Below are positions 2,818 through 18,247 of a stretch of DNA of 18,247 nucleotides, in pieces (positions within the stretch are counted from its first letter, which is position 1; the number at the start of each line of letters is the position of its first letter). The notes under the pieces were generated by a model. It saw only the letters and a program-made list of their open reading frames with translations, was not told the origin of the DNA and ran no database searches. Made by a program: the position numbers and the translations under genes. This stretch comes from Actinomycetes bacterium (GTDB lineage Bacteria > Actinomycetota > Acidimicrobiia > Acidimicrobiales > RAAP-2): positions 1 through 18,247 of the forward strand of contig JAJYWG010000434.1 of assembly GCA_021791615.1 (NCBI GenBank), given 5' to 3'.

Positions 2818-2947
2818 CCAGCGGTAACGGCGCGGTGGACATCGACCCGTCTGCGGTAAAAAAACGGTGAACGGGCCAGATCGACCGCTCCTCGATCAGG
2901 TGGTCCACGCCGCCGCGGCTCGCAGCCCGCCCACGGTTTCAGTACCG
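2818..2947 (-). promoter_or_regulatory. Probable kdp promoter region with a repeated GCGGTAA element
   Basis: This is the only non-coding stretch ahead of the kdp genes. On the plus strand GCGGTAA occurs at 2821-2827 and again at 2853-2859, 32 bp apart (three helical turns). The second copy runs into a seven-A tract followed by CGGTGAACGG. On the transcribed strand this reads as a T tract followed by TTACCGC. Paired half-sites next to the start fit a response-regulator site such as KdpE would use, but I cannot match a known actinobacterial consensus and no convincing -10/-35 pair stands out. Confidence 0.3.
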
Positions 2948-2962
2948 CGGCGTGAAACGCCG
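2948..2962 (-). terminator. Hairpin just after the XRE regulator gene, possible weak terminator
   Basis: CGGCG-TGAAA-CGCCG is a perfect 5-bp stem with a 5-nt loop, 11 nt past the regulator stop codon. No T run follows on the minus strand, so it would be at best a Rho-aided or partial terminator separating the regulator from the kdp operon. A dyad operator is the alternative. Confidence 0.3.
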
Positions 2963-2973
2963 TGCCGGGAAGC

Positions 2974-3819
2974 TCAGGCCTGCCCGAGGAGGTCGCGCAC
3001 CTTCTCCTGGTCCACTGCGCGGTGCGGCACCTGGACACAGAGGGTGAGCGAGGGGTGGGCGGCCACTTTCAGCTCGGTGACATCGAGCCGGATGACACCG
3101 ACATGCGGTCGGCGAAGAGCGATCTGGGTGGTGAGGGCTTGCTCGACGCGGCGCTTCGGCCACCAGGTGCGGAACAGCTCGCTGTGCTCGGTGAGCTCGT
3201 CGATGATCTCGCCGAAGCGAGGGTCGCCGGGGTGCTCGGCTGCGACCTCGTGGAACTGGGCGAGGAGGTGGCGGCCGCGCTCTTCTCGCCCGACGACGGT
3301 GGCCGTCGTGGTGCCGTCTGCGAAGTAGAGCCACATGAGGTTGCAGCGCCGGGCGGCCAGGTCGCCCGGGTGCCAGAGCCGGTCGAACGGCTGGTTCCAG
3401 GCGACGAAGTCGAAGTGGATGTCGAGCAGGCACGCTGGTGCCGGCTCCATGGCCAGAAGCAGGCGGGTGAGCTGTGGGTCGACGTCACCTGTCATCTGGT
3501 CATCTTCGGGAACGGGGAGCCCGGCGAGGCGTCGCAGGTGCCGGTGGGACTCGTCGTCGAGTCGCAGCGTCCGGGCGATGGCGTCGATCACCTGGATGCT
3601 CGGCATGCCGGGTTGGCCTTGTTCGAGGCGGGTGTACCAGGTGAGGCTGACGCCGGCTGCTGCGGCGACCTCTTCTCGGCGAAGCCCAGGGGTGTTGCGC
3701 CGTACGGGGTAGGAGTCGAGGCCGAGGTCTTCTGGGTGCAGGTCCGCCCGCCGGGCGCGCAGGAACTCGGCCAGCTCAGCCCGCCGTTCGGCGGCGGGGT
3801 CGGACGCTGCGGTCCGCAT
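2974..3819 (-). CDS. XRE-family transcriptional regulator with MmyB-like ligand-binding domain
   Basis: This 281-residue protein has two parts. Residues about 14-103 form a Cro/C1-type HTH with the signature NTPGLRREEVAAAAGVSLTW followed by YTRLEQGQ. Residues about 113-280 match the MmyB-like PAS-type domain (LLDIHFDFVAWNQPFDRLW, NLMWLYF, HPGDPRF, FRTWWPKRRV). Such regulators are abundant in actinobacteria and are thought to bind hydrophobic small molecules while controlling adjacent oxidoreductase genes. No such partner gene is visible here. The ATG at 3817-3819 lacks an obvious ribosome binding site; GATAGGCT lies just upstream, so the transcript may be leaderless. Five tandem 15-bp repeats lie 26-100 bp upstream and suggest autoregulation. 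A link to the kdp operon is not demonstrated. Confidence 0.9.
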   Translation of the reverse strand: MRTAASDPAAERRAELAEFLRARRADLHPEDLGLDSYPVRRNTPGLRREEVAAAAGVSLTWYTRLEQGQPGMPSIQVIDAIARTLRLDDESHRHLRRLAGLPVPEDDQMTGDVDPQLTRLLLAMEPAPACLLDIHFDFVAWNQPFDRLWHPGDLAARRCNLMWLYFADGTTTATVVGREERGRHLLAQFHEVAAEHPGDPRFGEIIDELTEHSELFRTWWPKRRVEQALTTQIALRRPHVGVIRLDVTELKVAAHPSLTLCVQVPHRAVDQEKVRDLLGQA

Positions 3820-5658: not shown

Positions 5659-6345
5659 ATGGCACAGGTGGCGACGGCAACCCGGCGCAACGGACAGCAA
5701 CCACCAGACGCTCGCCGCACGCTGCCGTCCCCGACCCTCGGCCGGCGCCGCCAGCTCCCCCTCGTCGTAGTGGGGGTGCTGCTCGTGGTGGGCTGCGCGC
5801 TCGCCTTCACCGACGCGTCGCTGCACCTCGGGACCCGAGAGGACGTGCTCGTCGTCGCCCAGCCGGTCGCCGCTGGCCAGGTGCTCACCGCAGCCGACCT
5901 GCGAGTGGCGAAGGTGTCGACCGGCAGCGGCCTGGAGGTCGTGGCCACGGGTGCCGAGGGGAGCGTGGTCGGCCGTCGGGCAGCGGTGTCGCTGCTCGCC
6001 GGGTCGCTCCTCACCGCCGCAGAGGTCGGCTCGGCGCCCGCGGTGGGGTCTGGGTCCGACGTGGTGGCGGTCGGGTTGAAGGCCGGTGCCTACCCGCCCG
6101 CACTTGCTCCCGGTGATCGTGTCGAGGTCGTCCCGGTCCCCGGTGCCTCGTCGGGGAGCGCCACAGGGTCGGTCACGGCCGGAAGCCCGGTCCAAGCGAC
6201 GGTGCTCGCGGTCGACGCCGCCCCGGTCGACTCAGGCGCGCCGACCGTGCTGTCACTGGCGGTCGGGTCCCGGGACGCCGGCGAGGTGGCCGCCCTCGCC
6301 GCAGCCGGCCAGGCGTCGGTGGTCGAGATCGGCGCAGGTAGCTGA
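5659..6345 (+). CDS. cpaB: CpaB/RcpC-like SAF-domain pilus assembly protein
   Basis: This 228-residue protein has a basic N-terminus, one membrane helix (about 33-51, LPLVVVGVLLVVGCALAF) and a SAF domain (about 62-125: VLVVAQPVAAGQVLTAADL, then GRRAAVSLLAGSLLTAAEV). A second beta-rich region contains PALAPGDRVEVVPVP. This is the arrangement of CpaB/RcpC, which supports Flp pilus assembly on the outside of the membrane; the short form without an outer-membrane secretin partner is normal in actinobacteria. AGAAAGG precedes the ATG by about 8 nt. It lies 14 nt after the PKD-like gene and is clearly in the same operon. Confidence 0.87.
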   Translation: MAQVATATRRNGQQPPDARRTLPSPTLGRRRQLPLVVVGVLLVVGCALAFTDASLHLGTREDVLVVAQPVAAGQVLTAADLRVAKVSTGSGLEVVATGAEGSVVGRRAAVSLLAGSLLTAAEVGSAPAVGSGSDVVAVGLKAGAYPPALAPGDRVEVVPVPGASSGSATGSVTAGSPVQATVLAVDAAPVDSGAPTVLSLAVGSRDAGEVAALAAAGQASVVEIGAGS

Positions 6346-6372
6346 CATGGGCACAGGCAGCTGAGATGGGAA
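6335..6372 (+). repeat. 19-bp tandem duplication of the cpaB stop / cpaE start junction, mini-ORF MGTGS
   Basis: CAGGTAGCTGACATGGGCA (6335-6353) is followed by CAGGCAGCTGAGATGGGAA (6354-6372), 16 of 19 identical. Each copy contains a TGA stop and an ATG. The first ATG opens a 5-codon frame, ATG GGC ACA GGC AGC TGA (6347-6364), ending one base before the cpaE-like ATG at 6366. Confidence 0.75.
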
Positions 6373-7277
6373 CGGTCACGGCGTTCGGTTCGGTCCGCTC
6401 TTCTGGCGTGACGACGCTCGTCCTCGGCCTCGCGGCGACGTGGCCGAGGCGGACCGAGCCACAGGGGCGCCCGGTGCTGGTGGTCGAGGCGGACCCTGCC
6501 GGCGGGACGCTGGCCGCATCGGCGGGGTGGCCGCCAGAGCCGGGGCTCGTGTCGCTTGCGGCGGCGGCACGCCGGGGCGCCGAGCCGTCCCTCGTCTTCG
6601 AGCACTGCCGCACGCTCCCAGGCGGCGCCTCCGTCCTTGCCGGCCCGGCCCGGGGCGACCAGGCCAAGAGCGCGCTTCGGATGCTGGCCACGCTGCTCGG
6701 GCAGCTCGGCGACCTCGACGCGGACGTGCTAGTGGACTGCGGCCGGCTGGACGACACTGCGGTGGTCCTCGGCATCTTCGAGCGGACCGCCCGGGCAGAC
6801 CGAGCGACCTGTGCGAACCGAGCGACCCGTGGGGACAGGGCGGTGCTGGTCAGCCGGAGGCGCCTGGCGGACCTGCAGGCGCTGTCTTCCTGGATCGACG
6901 CCCACCCTGCAGGACCGGGCACCGGGCTCGTGGTCGTCGGCGACGGCCCCTACCCCGACGCCGAGATCGCCGAGGCATTGGGTCTCGCGGTCCTGGGGCA
7001 CCTGCCGTGGGATCCGGGGACCCCCGACGCGCTTGTTGCGTATCGGGCGTCGGACCGGCGGCTACGAATGGCCCCGCTCGTGCGCGCCGCGCGCACCCTC
7101 GCCGAGCACCTCGCACGGGACGCGTCCTCGGGCGAGCCGGACGACGAGGACGTGGTGCTCACCGAGCAGCCACACGCCGGCCGGCGGGTGGCGATAGGCA
7201 GCCGGGTGCTGTCGGCCCGGCGGGTCGACACCCGCCCGCATACCAACGGCAGCGTCCCCGAGGAGGCGACCCAATGA
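6366..7277 (+). CDS. cpaE: CpaE-like MinD/ParA-family protein with degenerate Walker A
   Basis: This 303-residue protein has the MinD/ParA fold order. The N-terminal strand and P-loop region is GSVRSSGVTTL (8-18), then VLVVEADPAGGTLA (37-50, the switch aspartate strand), then DVLVDCGRL (120-128, Walker B-like). The deviant Walker A of this family is KGGxGKTT; here both lysines are gone (GVTT instead of GKTT). Such a change is, as I recall, common in actinobacterial Tad-locus homologues, and it suggests poor or no ATP hydrolysis. CpaE homologues help position Tad secretion machines. Residues 144-155 are an in-frame 6-codon tandem duplication. The C-terminus (about 255-303) is acidic then basic and unstructured. 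The gene sits between cpaB and tadA with duplicated junctions on both sides. Confidence 0.83.
   Translation: MGTVTAFGSVRSSGVTTLVLGLAATWPRRTEPQGRPVLVVEADPAGGTLAASAGWPPEPGLVSLAAAARRGAEPSLVFEHCRTLPGGASVLAGPARGDQAKSALRMLATLLGQLGDLDADVLVDCGRLDDTAVVLGIFERTARADRATCANRATRGDRAVLVSRRRLADLQALSSWIDAHPAGPGTGLVVVGDGPYPDAEIAEALGLAVLGHLPWDPGTPDALVAYRASDRRLRMAPLVRAARTLAEHLARDASSGEPDDEDVVLTEQPHAGRRVAIGSRVLSARRVDTRPHTNGSVPEEATQ
6795..6830 (+). repeat. In-frame 18-bp tandem duplication within cpaE-like gene
   Basis: Two 18-bp units (6795-6812 and 6813-6830) share ACCGAGCGACC plus flanking bases and encode ADRATC then ANRATR. A weaker third unit follows (GDRAVL). The reading frame is kept, so this is likely a tolerated surface-loop expansion. 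Confidence 0.6.
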
Positions 7278-7305
7278 GGGTGGACCAGTGAGCGTGGACC
7301 AGTGA
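7275..7305 (+). repeat. Two 14-bp tandem units between cpaE and tadA with chained mini-ORFs MRVDQ and MSVDQ
   Basis: TGAGGGTGGACCAG (7275-7288) and TGAGCGTGGACCAG (7289-7302) are tandem, 13 of 14 identical, then TGACC begins a third partial copy. ATG 7274 opens MRVDQ-stop. Its TGA overlaps GTG 7288, which opens MSVDQ-stop, and that TGA overlaps the GTG 7302 start of tadA. Each step is an NTGA overlap. Confidence 0.75.
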
Positions 7306-8615
7306 CCCCCGACGCGGGGGTGGTGGCCGGACTGCGGGCCGAGGTCCTCGCCGCGCTGTCCCAGCGTGAGCGGGAGCTGTCGGCTGGGGGACGCTCCCCG
7401 CTCGGACCAGCTGACGAGCAGGCGCTCGGCCGCCAGCTGATCGCAGACGCCCTGGAGCGCCGGGCCACCAAGGCGCTACGGGACCAAGACGTGCTGCTCG
7501 CCCCAGACGAAGAGGACGCCCTCGCCCGGGCAGTCTTCGACGCGCTGTTCCGCCTGGACCGCCTGCAGCGCCTCTTGGACGACCCGGGCATCGAGAACAT
7601 CAACGCGAATGGAGCCGACCAGGTCTTCGTCCGCTACGCCGATGGCCGTCGGGAGCAGGTGGCCCCGATCGCCGTCAGCGACGCCGAGCTCGAAGAGATG
7701 CTGCGCAGCGCGGCGGCACGGGTGGGGATCGGCGAACGGCGCTTCGACCGAGGCTCGCCGCGCCTGTCGTTACAGCTGCCCGACGGGTCCCGGCTGTTCG
7801 CGCTGATGGCCGTCGCGGCCCGGCCGTGCGTCTCGATCCGCCGGCACCGCTACCTGCGGGTCACCCCCGACGACCTGGTCCGCCTCGGCACTCTCGACCT
7901 GGCTCTTCGAGCGTTCCTTCGCGCCGCGATGCTGGCAAGGAAGTCGGTGATCATCTGCGGGGGCACCGGAGCGGGAAAGACCACGCTGCTTCGGGCGATG
8001 GCGGCCGACATCCCACCGTCAGAGCGTCTGGTCACCATCGAGGACTCCCTCGAGCTCGGCCTGGACCGCTTCGGCGACCTGCACCCCGACGTCGTCGCCC
8101 TGGAGGCCCGAGAGCCGAACCTCGAGGGCGAGGGTGGCGTCAGCCTGGCCGAGCTGGTCCGCTGGGCGCTTCGCATGTCGCCCGACCGGGTGATCGTCGG
8201 CGAGGCCCGCGGAGAAGAAGTCCTGGCGCTCTTGAACGCGATGAGCCAGGGCACCGACGGCTCGATGGCCACCCTGCACGCGTCCTCGTCGCGTGGTGCG
8301 TTCTCCAAGCTCGCCACCTACGCGGTGCAGGCCCCCGAGCGCTTGCCCTTGGAGGCGACGAACCTGCTGGTGGCGAACGCGGTGCACTTCGTCGTCCACA
8401 TCGCCCAGCACCAGGGGCAGCGCTTCGTGTCCTCGGTGCGCGAGGTGATCGACGCGGAGGGCCCGATGGTGGTCTCCAACGAGATCTTCCGGCCTGGACC
8501 CGACGGCCGGGCCGTTCCCGGCGCGCCGGTCCGAAACGACACCTTGGACCAGCTGGTCTCGGTCGGCTTCGACCCGGGCCTGTTGGACCGGCCCGAGGGG
8601 TGGTGGGAGACATGA
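7302..8615 (+). CDS. tadA: TadA/CpaF-type secretion motor ATPase
   Basis: This 437-residue hexameric ATPase powers Flp pilus assembly from the cytoplasmic face. An N-terminal domain (about 1-195) contains DDPGIENINANGADQVFV and SIRRHRYLRVT. The ATPase core follows: Walker A GGTGAGKTT (220-228, Lys226), Asp box RLVTIEDSLEL (242-252), Walker B RVIVGEARG with Glu301, and His box MATLHASS (322-329). All key residues are intact. The start is the GTG at 7302, reached through the duplicated junction; no in-frame alternative with a better ribosome site is seen. The stop overlaps the tadB ATG (ATGA, 8612-8615). Confidence 0.95.
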   Translation: MTPDAGVVAGLRAEVLAALSQRERELSAGGRSPLGPADEQALGRQLIADALERRATKALRDQDVLLAPDEEDALARAVFDALFRLDRLQRLLDDPGIENINANGADQVFVRYADGRREQVAPIAVSDAELEEMLRSAAARVGIGERRFDRGSPRLSLQLPDGSRLFALMAVAARPCVSIRRHRYLRVTPDDLVRLGTLDLALRAFLRAAMLARKSVIICGGTGAGKTTLLRAMAADIPPSERLVTIEDSLELGLDRFGDLHPDVVALEAREPNLEGEGGVSLAELVRWALRMSPDRVIVGEARGEEVLALLNAMSQGTDGSMATLHASSSRGAFSKLATYAVQAPERLPLEATNLLVANAVHFVVHIAQHQGQRFVSSVREVIDAEGPMVVSNEIFRPGPDGRAVPGAPVRNDTLDQLVSVGFDPGLLDRPEGWWET

Positions 8616-9526
8616 GCGCGCTGGCGGGCCTCCTCGGCGCAGGGGTGGGTCTCGGGGTGGTGCTGGTCGTTGCCGGCTGGCGCGGCGTGGAACTACCCCG
8701 GCCCACCCGGCGCCTCCAGCGGGCCGGCGTGGGGCGGGCCCAGGTGGGACGGCCCCAGCTGGAGCGGGCCAACCTGCGCCTCGCCCTTGCGGTCGGCGCG
8801 GCGGTGGTGGTTGGCGCGGCGACGGGGTGGCCTGTTGGGGCGGTGCTGGCCGGCCTGGCGGGATGGGGCGCACCGGGGTTGTTGGGCGGCGCAGGGCGCC
8901 ACCAGGCGGCCGTGGGGCGGATCGAGGCGGTGGCGGGCTGGGCGGAGATGCTGCGCGACACGATGGCCGGCGCCGCGGGCTTGGAGCAGGCCATCGTCGC
9001 CACGGCCCCTTTGGCCCCGCTCCCGATCCGGGCCGAGGTCGCCACCTTGGCGGTGCGCCTCGACTCCGAACGGCTCGCCCCGGCACTTCGGGCGTTCGCG
9101 GACGAGGTGGGGGATCCGACCTGCGACCTCGTCGTCGCAGCCCTGGTGCTTGCAGCCGACCACCAGGCCCAACGCCTCGGCGAGCTGCTCGGCACTCTCG
9201 CCCAGGCGGCGCGGGACCAGGCCACCATGCGCCTTCGAGTCGAAACCGGAAGGGCGCGGTCCCGGACGTCGGTCAAGGTCATCGTCGGGGCCACCGGCGC
9301 GCTCGTCGCCGGCCTGGCGCTCGTCGACCGCGGCTACCTCGCCCCCTACGACACGCTCACCGGACAGCTCGTCCTGGTCCTCGTCGGTGCGATGTTCGCG
9401 CTGTCGTTCGTGTGGCTCTCTCGCATGACCCGCCCGGCGAACTTGGAACGGATCCTCACCGGCCGGTCGACCGGGGCTGCCGTCGGTGACCCGGCGCCCC
9501 TGTCTCGATCGGGGTCCCGGTCGTGA
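8612..9526 (+). CDS. tadB: TadB-like inner-membrane platform protein (T2SS F family)
   Basis: This 304-residue integral membrane protein has an N-terminal hydrophobic helix (about 4-22) and a further hydrophobic region at 54-92. A cytoplasmic T2SSF domain (about 100-222) contains WAEMLRDTMAGAAGLEQAI and DEVGDPTCDLVVAAL. Two C-terminal helices follow (about 222-238 and 251-270). It forms the membrane platform with TadC, coupling TadA ATPase action to pilin extrusion. The ATG overlaps the tadA stop and has GGGAG upstream. The stop overlaps the tadC GTG (GTGA, 9523-9526). The tail after residue 272 is a short polar extension. Confidence 0.92.
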   Translation: MSALAGLLGAGVGLGVVLVVAGWRGVELPRPTRRLQRAGVGRAQVGRPQLERANLRLALAVGAAVVVGAATGWPVGAVLAGLAGWGAPGLLGGAGRHQAAVGRIEAVAGWAEMLRDTMAGAAGLEQAIVATAPLAPLPIRAEVATLAVRLDSERLAPALRAFADEVGDPTCDLVVAALVLAADHQAQRLGELLGTLAQAARDQATMRLRVETGRARSRTSVKVIVGATGALVAGLALVDRGYLAPYDTLTGQLVLVLVGAMFALSFVWLSRMTRPANLERILTGRSTGAAVGDPAPLSRSGSRS

Positions 9527-10437
9527 GCCCCGGTCTGCTGACCGCGCTCATTTGCGGGGCGGGGGTGGGTGCGGGGCTGTGGCTGGTGGTCCGGGGCCTG
9601 TTCCCACCCCGCCCGAGCCTCGCCCAGGCCCTCGCCCAGCTGCGCCGGGTCCCCGAACCCGCACCTCTCGCTGCCGAGGTTGACGGCGGGATAGCCGCAC
9701 GCCTCGGCCGGCCCATCGCCACCCTGCTCGAGCGCAGCGACGCTCGGTGGCTCGTGGCGGGAAAGGTCCGCCAGGACTTGGCCGTCCTCGGGCGGAGTGC
9801 CGAGCGGCACCTGGCCGAGAAGGTCACCCTCGCCCTGGTCGGCCTCCTCGTCGCCCCGGCGGTCACCGTGCTGCTCGCGGCAGGCGGGGTGCACCTCGGG
9901 CTCGTCGTGCCGGTGTGGGGATCGCTCGTGTGCATGGCCGGCGGGTTCTTCCTCCCCGACCTCGGCATCCGAGGAGATGCCGCCCGGCGGCGCACCGACT
10001 TCCGCCACGCGCTCTCGAGCTTCTTGGACCTCGTGGTCGTCGCCCTGGCCGGCGGCGGCGGGGTCGAGACCGCGCTTGCCGACGCGGCGTCGGTCGGCAA
10101 CGGCTGGGCGTTTACCACCCTGCGCCGGACCCTCGACCAGGCCCGCCTCGCCAGGGAGACCCCCTGGGCCGCGCTCGGACGTCTCGGCCAGCGGCTCGGC
10201 GTTGACGAGCTGGGCGAGCTCGCCGCGTCCCTCTCCCTGGCCGGCACCGAAGGCGCGAAGGTCCGCGCCAGCCTCGCCGCCAAGGCCACGTCGCTTCGCA
10301 CCCACCAGCTGGCCGAGGCCGAGACCGCGGACCAGGCCGCCACCGAGCGCATGGCGCTGCCGGTCGTGGTGCTCTTCGCCGGGTTCTTGTTCTTCCTCGG
10401 CTACCCCGCCGTCGTCAAGGTCCTCGGCGCGCTGTGA
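9523..10437 (+). CDS. tadC: TadC-like inner-membrane platform protein (T2SS F family)
   Basis: This 304-residue partner of TadB has an N-terminal helix (5-23), a long cytoplasmic stretch, two hydrophobic segments (about 101-120 and 124-146), the T2SSF domain (about 155-275: RHALSSFLDLVVVALAGGGG, then VETALADAA) and a final helix ending FLFFLGYPAVVKVLGAL. This GYP ending is typical of TadC. The GTG start overlaps the tadB stop. It is the last gene before the pilin, with 84 nt between them. Confidence 0.92.
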   Translation: MSPGLLTALICGAGVGAGLWLVVRGLFPPRPSLAQALAQLRRVPEPAPLAAEVDGGIAARLGRPIATLLERSDARWLVAGKVRQDLAVLGRSAERHLAEKVTLALVGLLVAPAVTVLLAAGGVHLGLVVPVWGSLVCMAGGFFLPDLGIRGDAARRRTDFRHALSSFLDLVVVALAGGGGVETALADAASVGNGWAFTTLRRTLDQARLARETPWAALGRLGQRLGVDELGELAASLSLAGTEGAKVRASLAAKATSLRTHQLAEAETADQAATERMALPVVVLFAGFLFFLGYPAVVKVLGAL

Positions 10438-10489
10438 GTAGTGCGTCGGTTCCGCGAACGCCCACGCACTCCAGTCAGTCAGACACAGA

Positions 10490-10523
10490 GAAAGGAACCA
10501 ACTGATGAAAGGACACCCACGAT
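10490..10523 (+). other. Duplicated ribosome binding site before the flp gene with a 10-codon mini-ORF
   Basis: GAAAGGA occurs at 10490-10496 and 10507-10513, 17 bp apart, each followed 8-10 nt later by GATG. The first site would serve ATG 10505, which opens MKGHPRCSQS-stop (stop TGA 10535-10537) out of frame with flp. The second serves the flp ATG at 10522. The similarity outside the GAAAGGA and GATG blocks is weak. Confidence 0.45.
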
Positions 10524-10731
10524 GTTCACAGAGCTGATCGTCCTCCGCCACCTCTTCACCGTCCTCCATAGTCGGTGGGAGGCGCTGCGTGCTGACCCGG
10601 AGGCCGGCTACACCACCGAGACGGTGATCGTCACTGCGCTGCTCGCCGCGCTGGCGCTCACCGCGGTCGGGATCATCGTGGCCAAGGTCGTCTCGGCCGC
10701 CAACAACATCTCGACCGGCAGCGGCGGCTGA
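10522..10731 (+). CDS. flp: Flp-type small pilin
   Basis: This 69-residue protein has a basic/polar leader of about 29 residues, a type IV prepilin-like junction EAGYTTETV and one hydrophobic helix (about 36-56: IVTALLAALALTAVGIIVAK), then a short polar tail NNISTGSGG. This is the organisation of actinobacterial Flp/DUF4244-like major pilins. Conserved Glu33 is at +4 if cleavage follows Gly29, or +5 if after Ala28, so the exact processing site is unclear. The ATG at 10522 has AAAGGA 8 nt upstream; an in-frame longer version from 10441 would add 27 polar residues and is less likely. The Tn7-like element begins 15 nt after the stop. No prepilin peptidase gene is in the window. Confidence 0.85.
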   Translation: MFTELIVLRHLFTVLHSRWEALRADPEAGYTTETVIVTALLAALALTAVGIIVAKVVSAANNISTGSGG

Positions 10732-10741
10732 GCAGCGCGCG

Positions 10742-10746
10742 CCGCC
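10742..10746 (+). repeat. 5-bp target-site duplication, left copy (CCGCC)
   Basis: CCGCC immediately precedes the TG tip of the left inverted repeat and matches the five bases after the right tip. Five-base duplications are characteristic of Tn7-like and Tn5053-type transposition. Confidence 0.88.
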
Positions 10747-10776
10747 TGTAGGGATGCCGTGAAGATGGCGAATGGG
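10747..10776 (+). repeat. Left terminal inverted repeat
   Basis: It begins TGTAGGGATGCCGTG and ends ATGGCGAATGGG. Compared with the reverse complement of 16703-16732, 26 of 30 bases match (mismatches at positions 3, 9, 16 and 18). Weaker similarity continues to about 46 bp. Confidence 0.92.
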
Positions 10777-10826
10777 TCGTCTACTTGGCGAACGCGTGGC
10801 GAGCGGGCCGCGAAGATGGCGAACGG
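10757..10826 (+). promoter_or_regulatory. Left-end array of candidate TnsB-binding sites
   Basis: The core TGGCGAAYG (R in one copy) recurs at 10766, 10786, 10797 (TGGCGAGCG) and 10817, with spacings of 20, 11 and 20 bp. The first and last copies extend to a 19-bp match (CCGTGAAGATGGCGAATGG at 10757 and CCGCGAAGATGGCGAACGG at 10808, 17 of 19). Tn7-family ends carry several such TnsB sites; assignment to TnsB is by analogy. Confidence 0.72.
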
Positions 10827-10906
10827 CCGGTGGAAATCCCCGGAGTTCTCGTTGTTCGGCACTACCGTTGGGCCGTGGCCGCGGAGCGCAGTTCCTCGTA
10901 GCACCC

Positions 10907-11623
10907 ATGAACGCCACCGCTGCTCGGGTGAGGTTCCGGGACAGCAGTGGGAAGGTCACTCACTCGGACCTGGCGTCGGTGTCGCCTGCGGCGGTGGCGA
11001 CGAGCCGGCCGTGGCGGACGTTCCGGTGGCATCACGGCCAGACGCACTTCTCGGGCTGGTACTGGTCGGCCACGACGAGTCGCCACGTCGTCTACGAGAG
11101 CCGCCTCGAGCTGGCTCGGTTGCTGCTCGCGGACTTCGACCCCTCGGTGGCCTCGATCGCCGCGCAGCCCTTCTACCTGACCGCGTCGGTGAACGGGAAG
11201 GAGCGCAACCATGTCCCTGACTTCCTGCTGCTCGATCGTGAGGGGGCGGTGAGCGTGGTGAACGTCAAACCGCAGGACCGCCTCGCCGATCCGAAGGTGG
11301 CCGAGGCGTTGGGGTGGGCCGGCACGGTGTTCGCCGAGCGGGGCTGGCGTCACGAGATCTGGAGCGGTGCGCCGGCGGTGCAACTGGCGAACGTGCGGTT
11401 CCTGGCCGCCTACCGTGATCCCGCCCGGATCGACCCGACGTTGGTGGCGGCGCTGTCCGACACCCTCGTCGGGCCAGTCAGGCTGGGCGAGCTCGAGCGG
11501 GCATGGCCGCAACGAGGTGACGACGCGCGTGCCGCGGCGTTGCACCTGTTGTGGCGAGGCGTGGTGCGCACGGATCTGTCGGCTCCGCTATCCGCCGACA
11601 CGATGCTGGAGCGCGCCGCATGA
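10907..11623 (+). CDS. tnsA: TnsA-like heteromeric transposase endonuclease
   Basis: This 238-residue protein has the TnsA endonuclease core at about 60-125: VVYESRLELARLL (Glu64/Glu68), IAAQPFYL (84-91), HVPDFLLLD (Asp105) and VVNVKPQ (Lys121). This is the E-D-x-K pattern of restriction-like nucleases, and the spacing fits the TnsA family. TnsA cleaves the 5' ends of the element, allowing cut-and-paste movement with TnsB. The C-terminal 100 residues form a helical, wHTH-like region that may contact TnsC. The ATG at 10907 has no clear Shine-Dalgarno. A longer frame starting at 10772 would translate the transposon end and is rejected. The stop overlaps the tnsB ATG. Confidence 0.87.
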   Translation: MNATAARVRFRDSSGKVTHSDLASVSPAAVATSRPWRTFRWHHGQTHFSGWYWSATTSRHVVYESRLELARLLLADFDPSVASIAAQPFYLTASVNGKERNHVPDFLLLDREGAVSVVNVKPQDRLADPKVAEALGWAGTVFAERGWRHEIWSGAPAVQLANVRFLAAYRDPARIDPTLVAALSDTLVGPVRLGELERAWPQRGDDARAAALHLLWRGVVRTDLSAPLSADTMLERAA

Positions 11624-13728
11624 GCGCCTGGACGGTCACGGTCGAGGTGGGGACGCGCCTCGCCCATGACGGCGAGCTGTGGACCGTCACCTCGATTGAA
11701 GCGGGCTGCGTCGTGCTCGCCGGGCCCCGAGGGGCGTGCAAGCGAGTGGTCACGGCGACGTTGTTCGCCGATCAGTCCACGAAGGTGATCGGCGCGAGCG
11801 ATAGCGCGCCCGCGCCGATGGGTTCGGTGCTCGACGACCTGGCCGATGCAGAGCGAATGCAGCTGACCGAGCGTCTCGGTCATGTTCGTGAGGTGCTGAC
11901 CGGCTATCGCTCGGGCAGCGCCGATCTGGCCGAGCCGGGCGAACCCCGACCTGGCTACGACCCGTCGCTTCCGCTCATGGACCGCTACCGGACGAAGGCA
12001 GCCGAGCTCGGGATCGGTTCACGGAGTGTCGAGCGGTGGGCAGCGGCGGTCCGGGAGGTGGGACCGGTCGGCCTTCTTGACGGAAGGGCCGCACACCCGT
12101 CCGACCCGTTCTCTGGGGTGGACGCCCGCTGGGTGGACATGTGCCGCACGGTGCTGGCCGAGCACGTCGAGGCGTCGCGCCCGACCAAGCAGCTGTTGAT
12201 TGACCGGGTGGCGGCCCGGTTGGAGGTGGAGCACGGCGTCGGCGTCGTGCCGGCCCCCGGACCGAAGAAGGCACGCGCCGTGCTCGCCGAGCTGACCCGG
12301 GGCACGAACGCCTTCGTCGGGGCGACGAAGCAGAAGCGCTCGATCGCCAACCGCCCGTCGAGCGCCTACGGCCGGCTGCGGGCGACCCGGCCGGGTGAGT
12401 ATCTGTTGTTGGACACGACGCCCCTCGACGTGTTCGCGATGGAGCCGCTCACGCTGCGTTGGGTGGGCGTCGAGCTCACGATCGCGATGGACCTGTTCTC
12501 CCGGTCCATCTGCGGGCTGCGCCTGTCGGCGGTCTCGACCAAGGCGGTGGACGCGGCGGTGGTGCTGTTCGAGACGTTGACGCCGGACTCTGTGCGCACG
12601 ACCGGTTCGGGCCTTCTGCCCTACGGCGGAGTGCCCGAGGTGGTGGTGGTCGACGCCGAGAGGGCCTGCTTCGCCAACGCTCCGGGAGCAAACGCAAGCG
12701 GAGGGTTGCCGGGGGTGGCGGCGGAGACGTTGGTGGTCGACCACGGCAAGATCTACCTCTCCGAGCACCTGCTCTCGGTGTGCGAGCGCCTGGGCATCTC
12801 GATCCAGCCGGCCCGCCCCCTCACCCCGACCGACAAGGCCGCCTGCGAACGGTTCTTCCGGACCCTCGGAGAAGGACTGCTCGTGGCGCTGCCCGGCTAC
12901 AAGGGCCCCGACGTCTACAGCCGGGGGGCGGATCCCGAGGGCTGCGCCTACTTCTTCGTCGACGAGCTGGAGCGGATCATCCGGGAGTGGACGGCGACGA
13001 TCTACCACCGCCGCCCCCACGAGGGGCTGACCGAGCCGGCCGCGCCGGGTGTGGAGCTCTCACCGGCCGAGATGTTCGAGGCGGGGTTGGCCCGCACCGG
13101 ACGGCTGCGGGTTGCCTCCCATCCGGGCCTCGTGTTCGACCTCTTGCCCACCGCGTGGCGGACGGTCCAGCACTACGGCGTCGAGGTCCACGGGCTGCGC
13201 TACAACGGCCCGTCCCTCACCCCTTATCGCAACCGCACGAGCCCGCACACCGGGCTTCATGCCGGCAAGTGGCCGGTCCGCTTCGACCCCGACGACATCT
13301 CCAAGGTGTACTTCTGCGACCCAGCCGACAACGCCTGGCACACCCTCACCTGGGAGCACGCCGCGGATGTGGGTGTGCCGTTCTCGGCCGAGACGCTCGC
13401 GTACGCCAAGCGCCTGGCGCTTGTCTCGGGCCGCCACGTCGACGAGCGCCGGGCCTTGGCCGAGCTGCTGGAGCGCTTCGACGCAGGCCTCGTGCGCAAC
13501 CCGGTCGAGCGGCGTCTGGCCCTGCGGGCCTCCGAGCAACGCCAAGCTCGCCTCGCGGCCGCGACCGGGTCGCAGGAGTTGGCCGAGGTGGTGGCCCTGC
13601 CGAGCGTCGCCGCCGTCACCGAACAGATGGTCCTCGTGGGCGACGACGACCGGCCAGAGGACCTCGACGACGACACGGCGTTGAGCGACGAGCAGTTCTA
13701 CGCCGACGCGTTCAGGGTGATCCGGTGA
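11620..13728 (+). CDS. tnsB: TnsB-like DDE transposase (rve / Mu-transposase family)
   Basis: This 702-residue protein carries out DNA strand transfer. N-terminal helical DNA-binding regions (about 118-155: DRYRTKAAELGIGSRSVERW, and about 165-215) precede the RNase H-like core. The catalytic triad is readable: Asp265 in YLLLDTTPLDVF, Asp374 in LVVDHGKIY and Glu410 in DKAACERFFRTLGE, with 35 residues between the last two (D35E). IYHRRPHEGL (about 465-474) and a C-terminal Mu-type beta barrel region (HAGKWPVRFDPDDISKVYF) follow, then a helical tail likely to bind TnsC. The length and domain order fit TnsB/TniA. The ATG overlaps the tnsA stop (ATGA), and the stop overlaps the tnsC GTG. Confidence 0.94.
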   Translation: MSAWTVTVEVGTRLAHDGELWTVTSIEAGCVVLAGPRGACKRVVTATLFADQSTKVIGASDSAPAPMGSVLDDLADAERMQLTERLGHVREVLTGYRSGSADLAEPGEPRPGYDPSLPLMDRYRTKAAELGIGSRSVERWAAAVREVGPVGLLDGRAAHPSDPFSGVDARWVDMCRTVLAEHVEASRPTKQLLIDRVAARLEVEHGVGVVPAPGPKKARAVLAELTRGTNAFVGATKQKRSIANRPSSAYGRLRATRPGEYLLLDTTPLDVFAMEPLTLRWVGVELTIAMDLFSRSICGLRLSAVSTKAVDAAVVLFETLTPDSVRTTGSGLLPYGGVPEVVVVDAERACFANAPGANASGGLPGVAAETLVVDHGKIYLSEHLLSVCERLGISIQPARPLTPTDKAACERFFRTLGEGLLVALPGYKGPDVYSRGADPEGCAYFFVDELERIIREWTATIYHRRPHEGLTEPAAPGVELSPAEMFEAGLARTGRLRVASHPGLVFDLLPTAWRTVQHYGVEVHGLRYNGPSLTPYRNRTSPHTGLHAGKWPVRFDPDDISKVYFCDPADNAWHTLTWEHAADVGVPFSAETLAYAKRLALVSGRHVDERRALAELLERFDAGLVRNPVERRLALRASEQRQARLAAATGSQELAEVVALPSVAAVTEQMVLVGDDDRPEDLDDDTALSDEQFYADAFRVIR

Positions 13729-14867
13729 GTGCCGAGGGTGCCGTGACGCTGGTCGAAGACGACCGCGACTGGAACCCCTCCACCAAGGCGGGATGGTTCG
13801 CCATGGCCGACGCGCCGCCTCGGAGCCGCCCCAAGTCGGTCAGGTCCGAAGCGTTGGCGGCGATGGCATCCCGGGACCGCCTCGTCTACGACCACGCCCG
13901 TGCCACCTGGCACGCCAACATCGGCCCGATCCGCACCCCGGGGGTCGACGCATTGTTCGAGACGCTCGAAGAGCTCGCCGGCGCGAACCGCCAAGACGGG
14001 GAGAAGGTGAAGCCCGCCGTCGTGCTCGACGCGCTACCAGGCCTCGGCAAGACGACCGCGGCGCTCGCCTTCGGCCAGGCCTTCCACCGCGCCCAGATCG
14101 AGCTCTACGGACCGAAGGTCCCGGCCACAGGCGACCACTGGCAGCGCATCCCGGTCGTCTATCTGGGGCTCACCTCCAACACGACGATGCGGAGCCTCAA
14201 CGCCATGCTCTGTCGCTTCTACGGACTGCCCGGCGCGGACCGGGGCACCGCCGACTGGCTGGCCAGCAGGGCAGCGGAGTGCGTGGCGAACTGCAAGACC
14301 CGTCTCGTCATCGTCGACGACGTCCACTTCCTCGACGTCAACCGGCGCGACGGCCGAGAAGTCGCCAACCACTTCAAGTGGCTGGCCAACACCTTCCCCG
14401 TCACCTTCTTCTTCGTGGGCGTCGGACTTCGCGCCCGTGGGCTGCTCGACGAAGGGCTGAGCGGGGCGGACGCAGCGTTCTCCCAGACCGCCCGGCGCTG
14501 GAGCGTCGCCAGCCTCGATCCCTTCGAGATCGCCACCAAGTCCGGCCGGGCGACCTGGCGGCAGCTGCTGCTCGGCATCGTACGCGAGGTCGTGCTCGCA
14601 AACGCCTATCGGGGCATGATCGTCCGGGACCTCTCCGACTACCTCTTCGCGCGATCCAGCGGGCACTTCGCCTCGCTCATGTCGCTCGTCGCCCGCGGCT
14701 GCTACCGGGCGGTGAAGACCGGGGCGGAGGTGCTGAGTGTCGAGCTGCTCGACGCGGTGCGCATCGACCAGGCCGCCGAGTCGGCCCGAGTGCATCTCCA
14801 CGCCGCGCTCTCAGCCGGCCTGCTGCCCGCAGATACCGACCGGCCACGACAGGAGGGTGCCGCATGA
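13725..14867 (+). CDS. tnsC: TnsC-like AAA+ ATPase, transposition regulator
   Basis: This 380-residue AAA+ protein has Walker A PGLGKTT (105-111, Lys109), Walker B LVIVDD (194-199) followed by VHFLD, and a sensor-like strand FFFVGVGLRARGL (228-240). TnsC polymerises on DNA, links the target selector to TnsA/TnsB and enforces target choice. The N-terminal HANIGPIRTPGVDALF resembles the pre-P-loop helix of TniB/TnsC. The GTG start overlaps the tnsB stop (GTGA); an ATG 26 codons later is the alternative. The stop overlaps the tniQ ATG. IstB of IS21 is a relative, but the TnsA and TniQ neighbours favour TnsC. Confidence 0.92.
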   Translation: MSAEGAVTLVEDDRDWNPSTKAGWFAMADAPPRSRPKSVRSEALAAMASRDRLVYDHARATWHANIGPIRTPGVDALFETLEELAGANRQDGEKVKPAVVLDALPGLGKTTAALAFGQAFHRAQIELYGPKVPATGDHWQRIPVVYLGLTSNTTMRSLNAMLCRFYGLPGADRGTADWLASRAAECVANCKTRLVIVDDVHFLDVNRRDGREVANHFKWLANTFPVTFFFVGVGLRARGLLDEGLSGADAAFSQTARRWSVASLDPFEIATKSGRATWRQLLLGIVREVVLANAYRGMIVRDLSDYLFARSSGHFASLMSLVARGCYRAVKTGAEVLSVELLDAVRIDQAAESARVHLHAALSAGLLPADTDRPRQEGAA

Positions 14868-16591
14868 CGACCCGCCTGCCCTTCACCCTCATCCCCCATG
14901 AAGGTCAAGACCTTGGTTCCTGGCTGTCGGCCTACGCCGCCCGCCTCGACGTCACCGCCTCCGAGCTTTCCGACGCGCTCGGCCTGCCCGACCACCTTCC
15001 CCGGGCTCGTCGCCTTGACGTCCTGCTCGACGACCACCACATCGAGACCATCGCCGTGGCCACCGGGCTTTCGTCGACCGCCATCGAGGCCTTGTGCGCA
15101 GCGGTCCCGCCCAGTGGGCCAGCAGTCCCCGGTGGCCTGAGCGTCGTCGAACGGCTCCGCAGGGCGACGACGTTGGCACCACAGGCGCGTCTTCAGCACG
15201 CGACCACCTTGCATCGAAGCCGCCGGGGCGTCGACGTCGACCCGGCGATCGAGCGCGCCGGGCGGCTCCCGGATCAGCTGTGGTCGGCCTGGGCCATCCG
15301 ATTGGTCGACCACGACGCCTTCGGGGCGGCCACCTTCGGCCCCTCGATGCTGGCCGCGCTGCTCGTCCCCCACAGCGGGCGCACCATGAAGGAGATCGCC
15401 GCCCTTGTGAGCGACCGGGTGCAGCCCGCCACCGTCGCCTTCCACCTCCGAAAGCTCCTCTCGGTCACCAAGTCAGTCGCCCCGCTGCAGATCCTCACCG
15501 AGCTGGCCTTCGCCATCGACACCCACGACCTGCCCATCGACTACGCCCGCCGCCGCCACGTCGCCTCTGGCACCGAGCTCATCGACGCCAGCACCTGGCG
15601 CAGGTTCGCGAGAGACACCGACGCTCGGACCGGCGGATCCCGCCGCGCCCGCTTTGCCCGCAGCTACCTCTACGAGCTGCTCACCGGCAACAGCCTCCAC
15701 CTCGCGCCCGCTCCCTACCGGATCGGCAGTGGCTTCGATCGGATGGAGTACCACGACTTCGTCGCCGGACTGCCCCTACCTCTCGTTGACGCGCTCCACG
15801 CCCACGCTCGACAGATTCTCGATGACGCCGGCATCACCTCCGAGCCGCTGCAGTGGAACCCGCCGACCAGCTGGATCACCGTTACCGAATGGCCCGGGGC
15901 CGACCCCGACCTCACCGACCCCCAGCCCATACACGACGCCCTGTGCTCATGGCGGGCACGGCAGGGTCAAGTCGCCGGGTCCTTCGGCATCTCGACTGAG
16001 CACCTCCGCCACGTCGTCCGCCACCATCCACGCACCGCGCCCCGTTACCCGACCCAACGAATGCTGGTCCCCGTCGCTTCCGCCGACAACCCCCGGCCAC
16101 CCGCCAACCCAAGGGCGCGCAATCTCGACCCGGCGTGGCTGCGCCGCGAGTACCTGGACTGGCGACGGCCCTTGCCCGACATCGCGGCCCAACTCGGCTG
16201 CCGGGTTGCCACGCTCAAGGCCTTCGCCCACGAGCACCACGTTCCGCTCCGACGTCATTCTGGTCCCGACGGCTTCGCTCGGCTCGAGCTGCCCGGCGTC
16301 CACCCCGCCGACATTCCCGATCTGCTGCGATCGGTTCTCGTCGGACGAGACGCACTGAAGCGTCTCTCCCGCTTCGTCGCCCTCGGCGAGCACGCCAGTC
16401 TCAACCAGGCCGCCCGCGCCCTCGGCGTCCACCAGTGCACGCTCACCAGCCAGCTCCAACAACTCGAACGCGCGAGCGGTGGCCTACTGGTCCACCGTCA
16501 CCCGCGCCCCCAACCCGTCGGCCCGCTCACCCCGCTCGGCGAGCAACTTCGTCAACAAGCACTCGATCACCTGCCCCGCCTCGCCGCGTGA
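14864..16591 (+). CDS. tniQ: TniQ/TnsD-like target selector with C-terminal LysR-type winged helix
   Basis: This 575-residue protein begins with a TniQ-like N-terminus (LPFTLIPHEGQDLGSWLSAY, then ALGLPDHLP and VATGLSSTAIEAL). The Cys zinc finger normally following in TniQ is absent: only four scattered Cys (78, 361, 446, 525), no CxxC. Several HTH-like segments follow, e.g. MKEIAALVSDRVQPATVAFH (175-194), AGSFGISTEHLRHVVRHH (371-388) and LPDIAAQLGCRVATLKAFA (437-455). Residues about 500-575 read as a LysR-family winged helix: SLNQAARALGVHQCTLTSQL, LQQLERASGG, LLVHRH, then GPLTPLGEQL. TnsD proteins read a specific attachment site and recruit TnsC, so this is probably the sequence-specific selector. 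The ATG has GGAGG upstream and overlaps the tnsC stop. Confidence 0.85.
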   Translation: MTTRLPFTLIPHEGQDLGSWLSAYAARLDVTASELSDALGLPDHLPRARRLDVLLDDHHIETIAVATGLSSTAIEALCAAVPPSGPAVPGGLSVVERLRRATTLAPQARLQHATTLHRSRRGVDVDPAIERAGRLPDQLWSAWAIRLVDHDAFGAATFGPSMLAALLVPHSGRTMKEIAALVSDRVQPATVAFHLRKLLSVTKSVAPLQILTELAFAIDTHDLPIDYARRRHVASGTELIDASTWRRFARDTDARTGGSRRARFARSYLYELLTGNSLHLAPAPYRIGSGFDRMEYHDFVAGLPLPLVDALHAHARQILDDAGITSEPLQWNPPTSWITVTEWPGADPDLTDPQPIHDALCSWRARQGQVAGSFGISTEHLRHVVRHHPRTAPRYPTQRMLVPVASADNPRPPANPRARNLDPAWLRREYLDWRRPLPDIAAQLGCRVATLKAFAHEHHVPLRRHSGPDGFARLELPGVHPADIPDLLRSVLVGRDALKRLSRFVALGEHASLNQAARALGVHQCTLTSQLQQLERASGGLLVHRHPRPQPVGPLTPLGEQLRQQALDHLPRLAA

Positions 16592-16607
16592 CTGACGATG
16601 ACCGAAG

Positions 16608-16714
16608 GATCCGCCAACTTCCATGCCCTCAATGCACCGAACAGACCACCCGTCCACACCGCGCCACAGCGTTCTCCCAGGACGGCTCCGCCAACAAGGC
16701 GGCCCATTCGCCAT
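16608..16714 (-). promoter_or_regulatory. Right-end candidate TnsB-binding sites
   Basis: Read on the minus strand, cores start at 16713 (TGGCGAATG), 16693 (TGGCGGAGC), weakly 16666 (TGGCGCGGT) and 16616 (TGGCGGATC, preceded by GGAAGT). The outermost core is 19 bp from the element tip, exactly as on the left, and the first spacing is 20 bp as on the left. The inner spacings differ, giving the asymmetric ends expected of Tn7-like elements. Confidence 0.62.
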
Positions 16715-16732
16715 GTCCACGGCCTCCCTGCA
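16703..16732 (-). repeat. Right terminal inverted repeat
   Basis: Read on the minus strand it starts TGCAGGGAGGCCGTG and ends ATGGCGAATGGG, 26 of 30 identical to the left repeat. It carries an ATG at 16713 in frame with the downstream tadE-like gene. Confidence 0.92.
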
Positions 16733-16737
16733 CCGCC
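16733..16737 (+). repeat. 5-bp target-site duplication, right copy (CCGCC)
   Basis: CCGCC directly follows the CA tip of the right repeat. Removing the element and one copy would leave flp and tadE separated by only about 35 nt. Confidence 0.88.
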
Positions 16738-16757
16738 AGAAGAGAGCGGGCTGCGCC

Positions 16758-17222
16758 ATGTCGGAGCAGTCAGGGCTGGCCCTGCGCCGGCCTGCGAGCC
16801 ACGCGCCATCCGGGCGTCCGGGGTTCCGGCGCGTGCTGTGGCGTAGCGAGCGGGGCGCGGTCGCCGCCGAGCTGGTGATCGCCACGCCGCTGCTCTTGTT
16901 GTTGATCATGGGGGTGATCCAGTTCGCCCTCTGGGAGCACGCCGTGCACGTCGCGGACGCGGTCGCCCAGCAGGGGGTGTCGGTCGGCCGCCTCCAAGGA
17001 GAGCCTGCCGAGGCCGGAGAGACCGAAGCCCGAAGCGTCCTCGACCAGCTCGGCCCCTCGGTGCTCACCGGCACGACGATCACCGCCACCAAGACCACCG
17101 AGATGACGACGGTGACGGTGACCGGTCACGCCGAGAGCATCCTCGGGGTGTTCTCGTTGCCGGTCTCGGCGACGGCATCGGGTGCGTCGGAGAGCTACAC
17201 GTACCCGGGCGGGGCGCCGTGA
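16758..17222 (+). CDS. tadE: TadE-like pseudopilin 1
   Basis: This 154-residue protein has a basic leader and a prepilin-like site ERGAVAAELV, where cleavage after Gly33 puts Glu38 at +5. A strongly hydrophobic helix (IATPLLLLLIMGVIQFALW, 41-59) follows. The extracytoplasmic part is beta-rich and ends in TYPGGAP. This matches the TadE minor pseudopilin family needed for Flp pilus assembly. The ATG at 16758 begins 25 bp after the transposon's right tip. A frame open further upstream runs through the transposon end, including an ATG at 16713, so a 15-residue longer product is possible. The stop overlaps the next GTG (GTGA). Confidence 0.87.
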   Translation: MSEQSGLALRRPASHAPSGRPGFRRVLWRSERGAVAAELVIATPLLLLLIMGVIQFALWEHAVHVADAVAQQGVSVGRLQGEPAEAGETEARSVLDQLGPSVLTGTTITATKTTEMTTVTVTGHAESILGVFSLPVSATASGASESYTYPGGAP

Positions 17223-17656
17223 GCACCCGACCGCTCGTGCGCGTGCTTCGCCGTGACGAGTCCGGCAGCGTCGCCTTGGAGATGGTGCTGCTCACCCCGC
17301 TGCTGGTCTTGATGCTGCTGTTCGTGGTGACGCTCGGACGTGTCGTGTCGGCGCGCATCGAGGTCGACGGCGCGGCGGCCCAGGCGACCCGGGCCGCGTC
17401 GATCGCCCGTGACCCCGCCACCGCCACCGCCATGGCCACCCAGGCCGCCGCCACCGCCCTCGGCTCGGACCACGTCACCTGCGCCGACGTTGCCGTCTCG
17501 ACCGACACCGCCGACTTCGTCCCCGGTGGTGAGGTGCAGGTGACCGTCACCTGCCACGTGAACGTCGCCGCACTCGTCGGCTTGGACCTCCCGGTCTCCG
17601 AGGCGCTGAGCTCGACGGCTGCGTCGGTGATCGACACCTACCGGGCATCCACATGA
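17219..17656 (+). CDS. TadE-like pseudopilin 2
   Basis: This 145-residue protein has a short leader ending RRDESG, the pseudopilin site G16|SVALE21 (Glu at +5) and a hydrophobic helix VLLTPLLVLMLLFVVTLG. An Ala-rich helix (AAAQATRAASIARDPATATA) and a C-terminal beta region with two Cys (VTCADVAV, VTVTCHVNV) follow, the usual form of TadE-like proteins. The GTG overlaps the first tadE stop, and its own stop overlaps the next ATG (ATGA, 17653-17656). Confidence 0.87.
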   Translation: MSTRPLVRVLRRDESGSVALEMVLLTPLLVLMLLFVVTLGRVVSARIEVDGAAAQATRAASIARDPATATAMATQAAATALGSDHVTCADVAVSTDTADFVPGGEVQVTVTCHVNVAALVGLDLPVSEALSSTAASVIDTYRAST

Positions 17657-18247
17657 CCGCCACCTTTCGACGGCTCAGCCTCCACCGGGTGCGTTCCCGG
17701 CTCGGTGATCCCGAGTCCGGGACGGTGACCGCGTTCGTGGTCGTGTTCATGCTGGCGCTGTTGGTGATGGCCGGCCTCGTCCTCGACGGCGGCCTGGCGC
17801 TGTCGGCCAAGATTCAGGCCATCGACGACGCCCAGGCCGCGGCCCGGGCGGGCGCCCAGGCGATCGACGTCCCCCTTTACCGCTCGACCGGGGAGGTCAC
17901 CCTCGACCCCGCCCAGGCGACCTCCGACGCCGAGGCGTTCTTGACCCGCGCAGGGCGCACCGGGACCGTCAGTGTCACAGGCGACCAGGTGACCGTCACG
18001 GTCACCATCACCCAGCCCACCCAGATCCTCTCGCTGGTCGGGATCGCCTCGCTCACCGAGACCGGTGTTAGCGGCAGCGCTGTTTGGACATCGGTCGGCG
18101 GCGCTACACGATCACCGAGCGGCAACTTGTCGATGCTCACCGCGAACGACCGAACGACGGAACGACGAAAGATCAGGTGGCCGGAAGAGCCACCATGCAC
18201 GGCGAAGGTGCTTTGGACCGCCCTGGAATCAGTGGAGGCTCCCGCGC
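17653..18247 (+). CDS. TadG-like pilus protein, 3' end not in window
   Basis: The frame encodes 198 residues without a stop before the edge. It has a basic leader, PESGTVTAF (pseudopilin-like, but Phe replaces the +5 Glu), a hydrophobic helix (FVVVFMLALLVMAGLVLDGG) and then LALSAKIQAIDDAQAAARAGAQAI, typical of the TadG/TadE-like third protein of actinobacterial loci. A beta region ends LSLVGIASLTETGVSGSA. Homologues usually stop soon after this point. From about 18080 onward the codons turn poorer in G/C at third positions, and three 8-bp repeats appear. The last roughly 55 residues may therefore be a divergent tail or the result of a frameshift. It is co-translated with the upstream gene (ATGA). 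Confidence 0.8.
   Translation, partial: MTATFRRLSLHRVRSRLGDPESGTVTAFVVVFMLALLVMAGLVLDGGLALSAKIQAIDDAQAAARAGAQAIDVPLYRSTGEVTLDPAQATSDAEAFLTRAGRTGTVSVTGDQVTVTVTITQPTQILSLVGIASLTETGVSGSAVWTSVGGATRSPSGNLSMLTANDRTTERRKIRWPEEPPCTAKVLWTALESVEAPA
18144..18167. repeat. Three tandem 8-bp repeats (GAACGACC/G)
   Basis: GAACGACC, GAACGACG and GAACGACG follow each other at 18144, 18152 and 18160. A period of 8 is not a multiple of three, so this is unlikely to have grown inside a constrained coding region. That fits loss of coding constraint at the end of the TadG-like frame. Confidence 0.5.
18195..18247 (+). CDS. Possible start of a further gene (17 codons visible)
   Basis: ATG at 18195 is preceded by GGAAGAG with 5 nt spacing, a good ribosome binding site, and the frame stays open to the edge (MHGEGALDRPGISGGSR). 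It is in a different frame from the TadG-like gene. Too little is visible to name it, and it may be chance. Confidence 0.28.
   Translation, partial: MHGEGALDRPGISGGSR

Follow-up and report, generated by a model that had tools for sequence, protein, structure and literature searches.

How does a transposon that carries nothing except its own transposition genes come to lie between two genes of a pilus cluster, and is that position chosen? The question arises from a window of 18,247 nt (the whole stretch of DNA analysed), in which a Tad pilus gene cluster (positions 5659 to 18246, forward strand) is interrupted by a 5,986-bp Tn7-like element at 10747 to 16732 whose only genes are tnsA, tnsB, tnsC, and tniQ.

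A four-gene element within a Tad pilus cluster

The ends of the element can be read to the base. Its tips (TGTAGGG... at 10747 and ...CCCTGCA at 16732) open two ends that, read directly, are identical at 26 of their first 30 nt. The inverted repeat reaches 51 nt at 78% identity, spanning 10747 to 10797 (forward strand) on the tnsA side, the "right end" of the Tn7 convention as given in the available part of a review (PMC11406308), and 16682 to 16732 (reverse strand) on the tniQ side. Outside these ends lies a CCGCC target site duplication, at 10742 to 10746 on the pilin side and 16733 to 16737 on the tadE side. The best 28-nt terminal match between the flanks was 24/28 and came with this perfect 5-bp duplication; when the flanks were permuted 100 times in blocks of two bases, the maximum was 22/28, and no shuffle (0/100) reached 22/28 or more together with a perfect duplication. 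Three WTGGCGAA repeats on the tnsA side (at 10765, 10785, and 10816; 10765 to 10823, forward strand) and three of the same type on the tniQ side (at 16610, 16687, and 16707; 16610 to 16714, reverse strand) are candidate TnsB-binding sites. Genome G001, in which 100% of the window's sampled words are present, contains the same element once.

The four genes, all on the forward strand, leave only 160 nt and 141 nt of the element outside them. The product of tnsA (10907 to 11623; 238 aa) scored 236 bits against NF033179 (cutoff, 110) and 31.9 bits against PF08722, and that of tnsB (11620 to 13728; 702 aa) is a DDE transposase with matches to Mu-transpos_C (35.8 bits) and to solved TnsB proteins. 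For tnsC (13725 to 14867), we chose a GTG start overlapping the tnsB stop; it encodes an AAA ATPase (AAA_22, 44.3 bits; TniB, 33.8 bits). The residues that we take to be catalytic were unchanged in all aligned relatives, namely, E64/D105/K121 of TnsA (14/14), D265/D374/E410 of TnsB (13/13), and K108 and D197 of TnsC (14/14; P0002 numbering). A TnsA endonuclease with these residues, a TnsB DDE transposase, a TnsC AAA+ ATPase, TG...CA ends with repeats, and a 5-bp target duplication are all Tn7-like traits, and in every feature tested, apart from the zinc finger of the selector, the element is, on its sequence, a Tn7-like transposon. The 5-bp duplication is described as characteristic of Tn7-like elements in the available text of the review (PMC11406308). 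An RNA-guided element was rejected because the four genes leave no space for Cas genes; an Rfam search of the window at the gathering score gave no match, and no tRNA was found in it. The base-exact ends, the repeats, the duplication, the four genes with intact motifs, and the completeness of the element without cargo had all been claimed in a preliminary description of this DNA and were confirmed here, and its suggestion of little decay is supported.

That description had also placed the element inside a Tad cluster, in agreement with the TadA (T2SSE), TadC (T2SSF), TadE (two genes), and Tad genes that Pfam names around it, together with a SAF/CpaB-like gene. The cluster extends beyond the window edge, and its genes at 6366 to 7277 and 8615 to 9526 had no Pfam match. 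The insertion lies between a short pilin-like gene (10522 to 10731, forward strand), its target, which is named by size, place, and conservation without a Pfam match, and tadE (16758 to 17222, forward strand; PF07811, 39.4 bits).

Repeated insertions past the pilin gene

When the 32 genomes of the G001 family were searched for TadC, 12 of them yielded 22 matches in total. The empty site predicted in the preliminary description was found in two relatives, L035 (G022; 89.7% nucleotide identity) and L036 (G021; 82%), which align over the junction, lack the element, and have a single CCGCC; beside the junction, L035 has 4 extra nt and L036 has about 40. Among the 14 loci of this family whose stop was readable and whose pilin match reached at least 70%, 6 were occupied, including the window's own, and 8 were empty (L052, whose contig ends inside the pilin gene, was excluded).

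An end-pattern search, blind to place and biased toward end types already seen, matched 6/32 genomes of the family, 8/397 of the order, and 1/17 of the family of G206, in overlapping sets that include many draft or incomplete genomes; the reversed pattern had no match in the genomes of these three sets. The union of the matches comprised 11 places, of which 8 lie directly past a tad pilin gene (G001, G003 twice, G019, G021, G022, G206, and G265) and 2 lie a few bases past dnaB (G072 and G327), while the eleventh (G014) is a decayed insertion with a 4/5 duplication in a cluster with a DUF6112-like gene. The 8 pilin loci hold 10 insertions, three with tns genes and seven without, the latter including two nested pairs. 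Besides the window element, those with tns genes are L048/L077 (G022:C277), with a TnsA 82% identical and a contig that stops within tnsB, and the element of G265, with a TnsA 75% and a TnsB 82% identical over the portion present. The contigs of G022 and G265 both stop before tadE, and their duplications are unreadable.

The seven gene-less copies, found at five pilin loci, measure 360, 360, 360, 367, 370, 371, and 372 bp. Their end type is like that of the window element, and at L039, L040, L047, and L055 they occupy the gap between pilin gene and tadE and are too short for tns genes. In being short and gene-less, with matching ends and target duplications of their own (4/5 at L039, perfect in the other six), they qualify as miniature inverted-repeat elements (MITEs). 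Two further elements, L010 and L011 (G412 and G413), with TniQ 65 to 67% identical, are truncated by their contig ends toward the pilin gene and are known from the tadE side only: the right flank of L011 leads directly to tadE and shares 90% identity with the tad loci L039 and L040, and the 75-nt flank of L010 is 93% identical to that of L011. TnsA was searched for in G412 and G413 and not found, and the pilin side of these two elements is therefore unseen. Judging from the sequences at hand, the pilin position is not random but a recurrent insertion site for related elements and gene-less derivatives.

The preliminary description had proposed looking for the same ends in relatives, and both tns-bearing and gene-less forms were found. 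It had regarded such ends at this place without the genes as evidence against its delimitation; they do occur (G003, G019, G021, and G206) but leave the delimitation standing because the short elements mostly have perfect duplications of their own (6/7) and truly empty loci exist too. The reuse of the pilin position by related elements and their gene-less derivatives had been overlooked there.

Both the spacing and the orientation of the insertions are regular. Seven insertions at five loci lie 13 to 20 nt from the stop codon versus 52 to 54 bp from a conserved pilin coding motif (10672 to 10692, forward strand), which is a candidate recognition sequence. The spread is correspondingly smaller from the motif (standard deviation, 0.73) than from the stop (2.67), where L039, L040, and L089 (pilin gene partly N) are left out and, in each nested pair, the earlier element is placed as before the second insertion (one base less). 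The distance is tighter from the motif because two loci with a 6-nt-longer pilin tail insert correspondingly nearer the stop. At G019 and G003:C18, the insertions lie 60 and 64 bp from the motif, with trinucleotide repeats at the junction, and including them raises the spreads to 5.6 (stop) and 4.08 (motif). Considering INDEPENDENCE and distance, there are seven perfect duplications, all differing (CCGCC, ATGAC, AGCTC, ACCAC, CCACT, ATGGC, and TGGCT). The tnsA-side end faces the pilin gene in 10/10 insertions, as read from gene order in three and from alignment in seven; on this comparative evidence, insertion is site specific, past a conserved gene, and in a fixed orientation, as in Tn7-like transposons. 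Two short elements are stacked in each of G021 and G206, and the duplications place the second insertion 1 bp inside the pilin-side end of the first. The TGTCGGTT type came first in G021, followed by the ATGGCGAA type; the order in G206 is opposite, ATGGCGAA type first and then TGTCGGTT type, and the G206 junction, when rebuilt without its insertions, closely resembles the empty locus L037 (G020).

We consider it probable (roughly 0.8) that the element in the window is a Tn7-like transposon that is sufficient for its own movement, carries no cargo, and has the 3' end of the Tad pilin gene as the single attachment site to which it homes. Loose targeting, with selection retaining only those insertions that fall in a harmless gap, is quite improbable. 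The gap between pilin gene and tadE is indeed non-coding, and further actinobacterial relatives also lie directly past genes, but selection would not keep seven insertions at 52 to 54 bp from a motif, nor would it account for the fixed orientation or for elements stacked within 1 bp of each other. We likewise doubt that the short copies, and possibly also the full element, are retained as regulatory spacers between pilin gene and tadE; the seven copies at pilin sites are almost uniform in length (360 to 372 bp), which would suit such a role, but uniform size is explicable by spread from one progenitor, and 8 of the 14 close loci have no insertion. Less credible still is a single ancient insertion that was inherited, the remaining copies being its decayed descendants. 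The seven perfect duplications differ, as do the offsets, there are two end families, nested pairs at two loci stand in opposite order, and 8/14 close, readable loci in the family are empty, even though the pilin-site hosts of told kinship all belong to one order and the flanks of the G003 and G019 loci are related. Simple vertical inheritance of one insertion is rejected by the differing duplications and the nested pairs.

The putative target selector and relatives of the element

TniQ (575 aa; 14864 to 16591, forward strand) is the likely target selector. Its N-terminal TniQ helical domain includes a Hel1 part (residues 1 to 80; 14864 to 15103, forward strand) that matches residues 9 to 86 of ShCAST TniQ in structure, and its C-terminal LysR-type helix-turn-helix (HTH; residues 498 to 559; 16355 to 16540, forward strand), indicated by Pfam and by a structure match, is the likely DNA-binding part. 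In Pfam, the LysR-type HTH scored 40.3 bits and TniQ a weak 19.2 bits (cutoff, 27). The canonical TniQ/TnsD core consists of Hel1, a zinc finger, a linker, and Hel2, as set out in the available part of PMC10293859. Hel1 is present in the window TniQ, and the zinc finger is missing, with no CxxC in this protein or in any of P0005 to P0038. CxxC is present in 60/63 TniQ relatives of at least 600 aa, and C94/C97/C116/H119 were unchanged in 38 aligned long TniQ proteins, whose model matches ShTniQ residues 87 to 166. Foldseek searches of both TniQ models against the PDB returned nothing at an E value of 0.001 or better, and the VIA lists for the models held mostly LysR proteins and CAST TniQ.

TniQ searches gave no further full-length relatives in the family of G001 (32 genomes) and its order (397) or in the families of G413 (172), G412 (35), and G414 (150); the second match of one such search coincides with L012 by coordinates. 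No relative was found in the viral contigs searched, and the plasmid search gave 49 records, each below 60% identity. The delimited relatives L013 to L016 and L026 are 6.6 to 6.7 kb long and have the same four genes as the window element. Target duplications are perfect in L014, L015, and L026 and 4/5 in L013; L016 had no clear duplication at its ends, and the tnsA-side end of L012 was searched for and not found. L014 and L015, both from one genome, are identical over their 6,651 bp and have the duplications CGTCC and GCCAG. The lack of cargo, which the preliminary description had treated as distinguishing, does not set the window element apart from these relatives or from Tn5469, a cargo-free element in the available text of PMC11406308. 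An origin by internal deletion of a larger cargo-bearing transposon is the least credible reading, for although cargo was present in 96% of 6,549 Tn7-like transposons (median lengths, 14 to 29 kb) in the available part of a survey (PMC8649781), L014, L015, and L026 have the same four genes in 6,651 bp, L013 is similar with its 4/5 duplication, and cargo loss is rejected by relatives of equal size.

Other relatives also lie close behind genes. The long-class elements L013, L014, and L015 lie 13 to 14 nt past small genes; the gene at L014 is a DUF6112 member (PF19607), and its counterparts at L013 and L015 match it. A "conjugation-like" cluster beside these three was unsupported by Pfam, the targets being DUF6112 and the large neighbor having no match. 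Among the 11 distant loci having tnsA (L018 to L033), dnaB adjoins it in 7, and two of the other four have less than 1 kb before tnsA. L026 consists of two copies in tandem, of which the first lies 12 nt beyond dnaB. L010 and L011 are 91 to 99% identical per 100-nt block over tnsC and tniQ, with a dip to 81 to 89% in four blocks (L011 positions 1901 to 2400), versus 55% upstream of tnsC (a region that in L011 did not read as the end of tnsB) and 65 to 78% in the terminal stretch, where each shows a different one of the two repeat types. The ends thus appear to have been exchanged, with TnsC-TniQ retained.

If the element homes to the pilin gene as we propose, the LysR-type HTH of TniQ and the helical region preceding it would bind the conserved pilin coding sequence, the N-terminal domain would recruit TnsC, and TnsA and TnsB would excise the element and join it about 52 to 54 bp downstream, past the stop, so that the pilin gene would be left whole. 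The 360- to 372-bp copies may be non-autonomous derivatives that such elements mobilise in trans; they would form two families, distinguished by their repeats (ATGGCGAA or TGTCGGTT), that do not exclude each other. We give even chances to a broader picture, that of a selfish, pilin-dwelling Tn7-like lineage that dropped the zinc finger for a LysR-tipped TniQ, in which two end/TnsB systems would share one site and a largely common TnsC-TniQ cassette, stack without mutual immunity, and carry Tn7-derived MITEs. If this is true, the ecology of a whole Tn7 family would be legible at a single 50-bp address.

Comparison with known systems

The pilin attachment site, the LysR-tipped TniQ without a zinc finger, and the stacked Tn7-derived short copies appear to be new, as titles and abstract openings of the open-access papers retrieved mentioned no Tn7-like element at a tad pilin gene or dnaB, no TniQ with a LysR-type end, and no Tn7-derived short copies stacked at one site. 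The locus would add the pilin gene to the attachment sites of Tn7-like elements and provides a complete TnsABC-TniQ system of very small size (6 kb and four genes, with known ends and a predicted target). The short TniQ class, which works, if it does, without a zinc finger, is a natural test of the role of that domain in TniQ, and the nested insertions make rules of distance and target immunity testable with defined sequences. The source group was reported in 2021 as uncharacterised, the available part of the survey giving no experimentally characterised member of an Actinobacteria-dominated Tn7-like clade (PMC8649781). The window element resembles this "second clade" and the NF033179 TnsA family in TnsA score and in the host group of its relatives.

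Like Tn7 (TnsABCD, with attTn7 at glmS), the window element combines TnsA, TnsB, and TnsC with a TniQ-family protein, TG...CA repeat ends, and a 5-bp duplication, and it inserts at a fixed distance past the end of a conserved gene in a controlled orientation. The available text of the review has TnsD of Tn7 reading the 3' coding end of glmS and Tn7-like elements controlling orientation (PMC11406308). Unlike Tn7, it has a pilin target, a selector without a zinc finger and with a LysR-type HTH end, no tnsE, and no cargo. It shares the lack of cargo and a single TniQ with the cyanobacterial Tn5469, for which the same review, in the part available, suggests no target specificity (PMC11406308), whereas the site of the window element is used repeatedly. 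The predicted N-terminal Hel1 fold of its TniQ is like that of ShCAST (type V-K); however, V-K TniQ consists of Hel1 and a zinc finger, according to the available part of PMC10293859, and the window TniQ of Hel1 and a long C-terminal part without one. The gene-less copies resemble MITEs in size, ends, and duplications but differ in deriving, as it seems, from a Tn7-like element and in their placement, since, of the eight copies whose two ends are both delimited, seven share a single kind of attachment site.

dnaB beside element ends

In the more distant relatives that carry tnsA, the tnsA-side end, which is the right end by Tn7 convention, adjoins dnaB at 7 of 11 loci, from actinobacterial relatives (L018, L025, L026, L028, L029, L030, and L033). 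End sequences were also found 6 to 10 nt past dnaB in two genomes (L090 and L091), and there the surrounding DNA gave no hit to the tns proteins of the window. Because dnaB recurs beside element ends in both sets, it looks like a further attachment site in addition to the pilin gene. The match to dnaB was split, or preceded by long insertions, at L025, L026, L028, L029, L033, and L090. At L026, Pfam placed homing-endonuclease domains next to DnaB_C, a domain pattern such as an intein would give.

Repeated copies within one genome

Just past dnaB in Nonomuraea antri (L026, 1208 to 14516), two nearly identical elements lie in tandem with a TCTTT duplication between them, an arrangement suggesting that target immunity is weak. 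Microlunatus parietis has two identical copies of a four-gene element (L014 and L015; 5889 to 12539, 6,651 bp), each starting 14 nt past a DUF6112-type gene and with different duplications.

Short elements and Tad surroundings

A decayed short element (L075, 4813 to 5205; G014:C102) has no pilin gene near it; the cluster that holds it includes a DUF6112-like gene and another resembling the large one beside L014. At two of the tad pilin loci with short gene-less elements (L039 and L040), trinucleotide repeats (CTG and ATG) occupy the insertion junction just ahead of the element, and the spacing is longer than at other loci. Upstream of the window's Tad cluster, the minus-strand genes for a universal stress protein, KdpA, and an MmyB-like regulator (435 to 3819) are ordinary neighbors.

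Ends of L010 and L011

Two elements seen from the tadE side, L010 and L011, encode nearly identical TnsC-TniQ but differ ahead of tnsC and in the terminal stretch, each with its own repeat type. This contrast in sequence points to a possible swap of ends.
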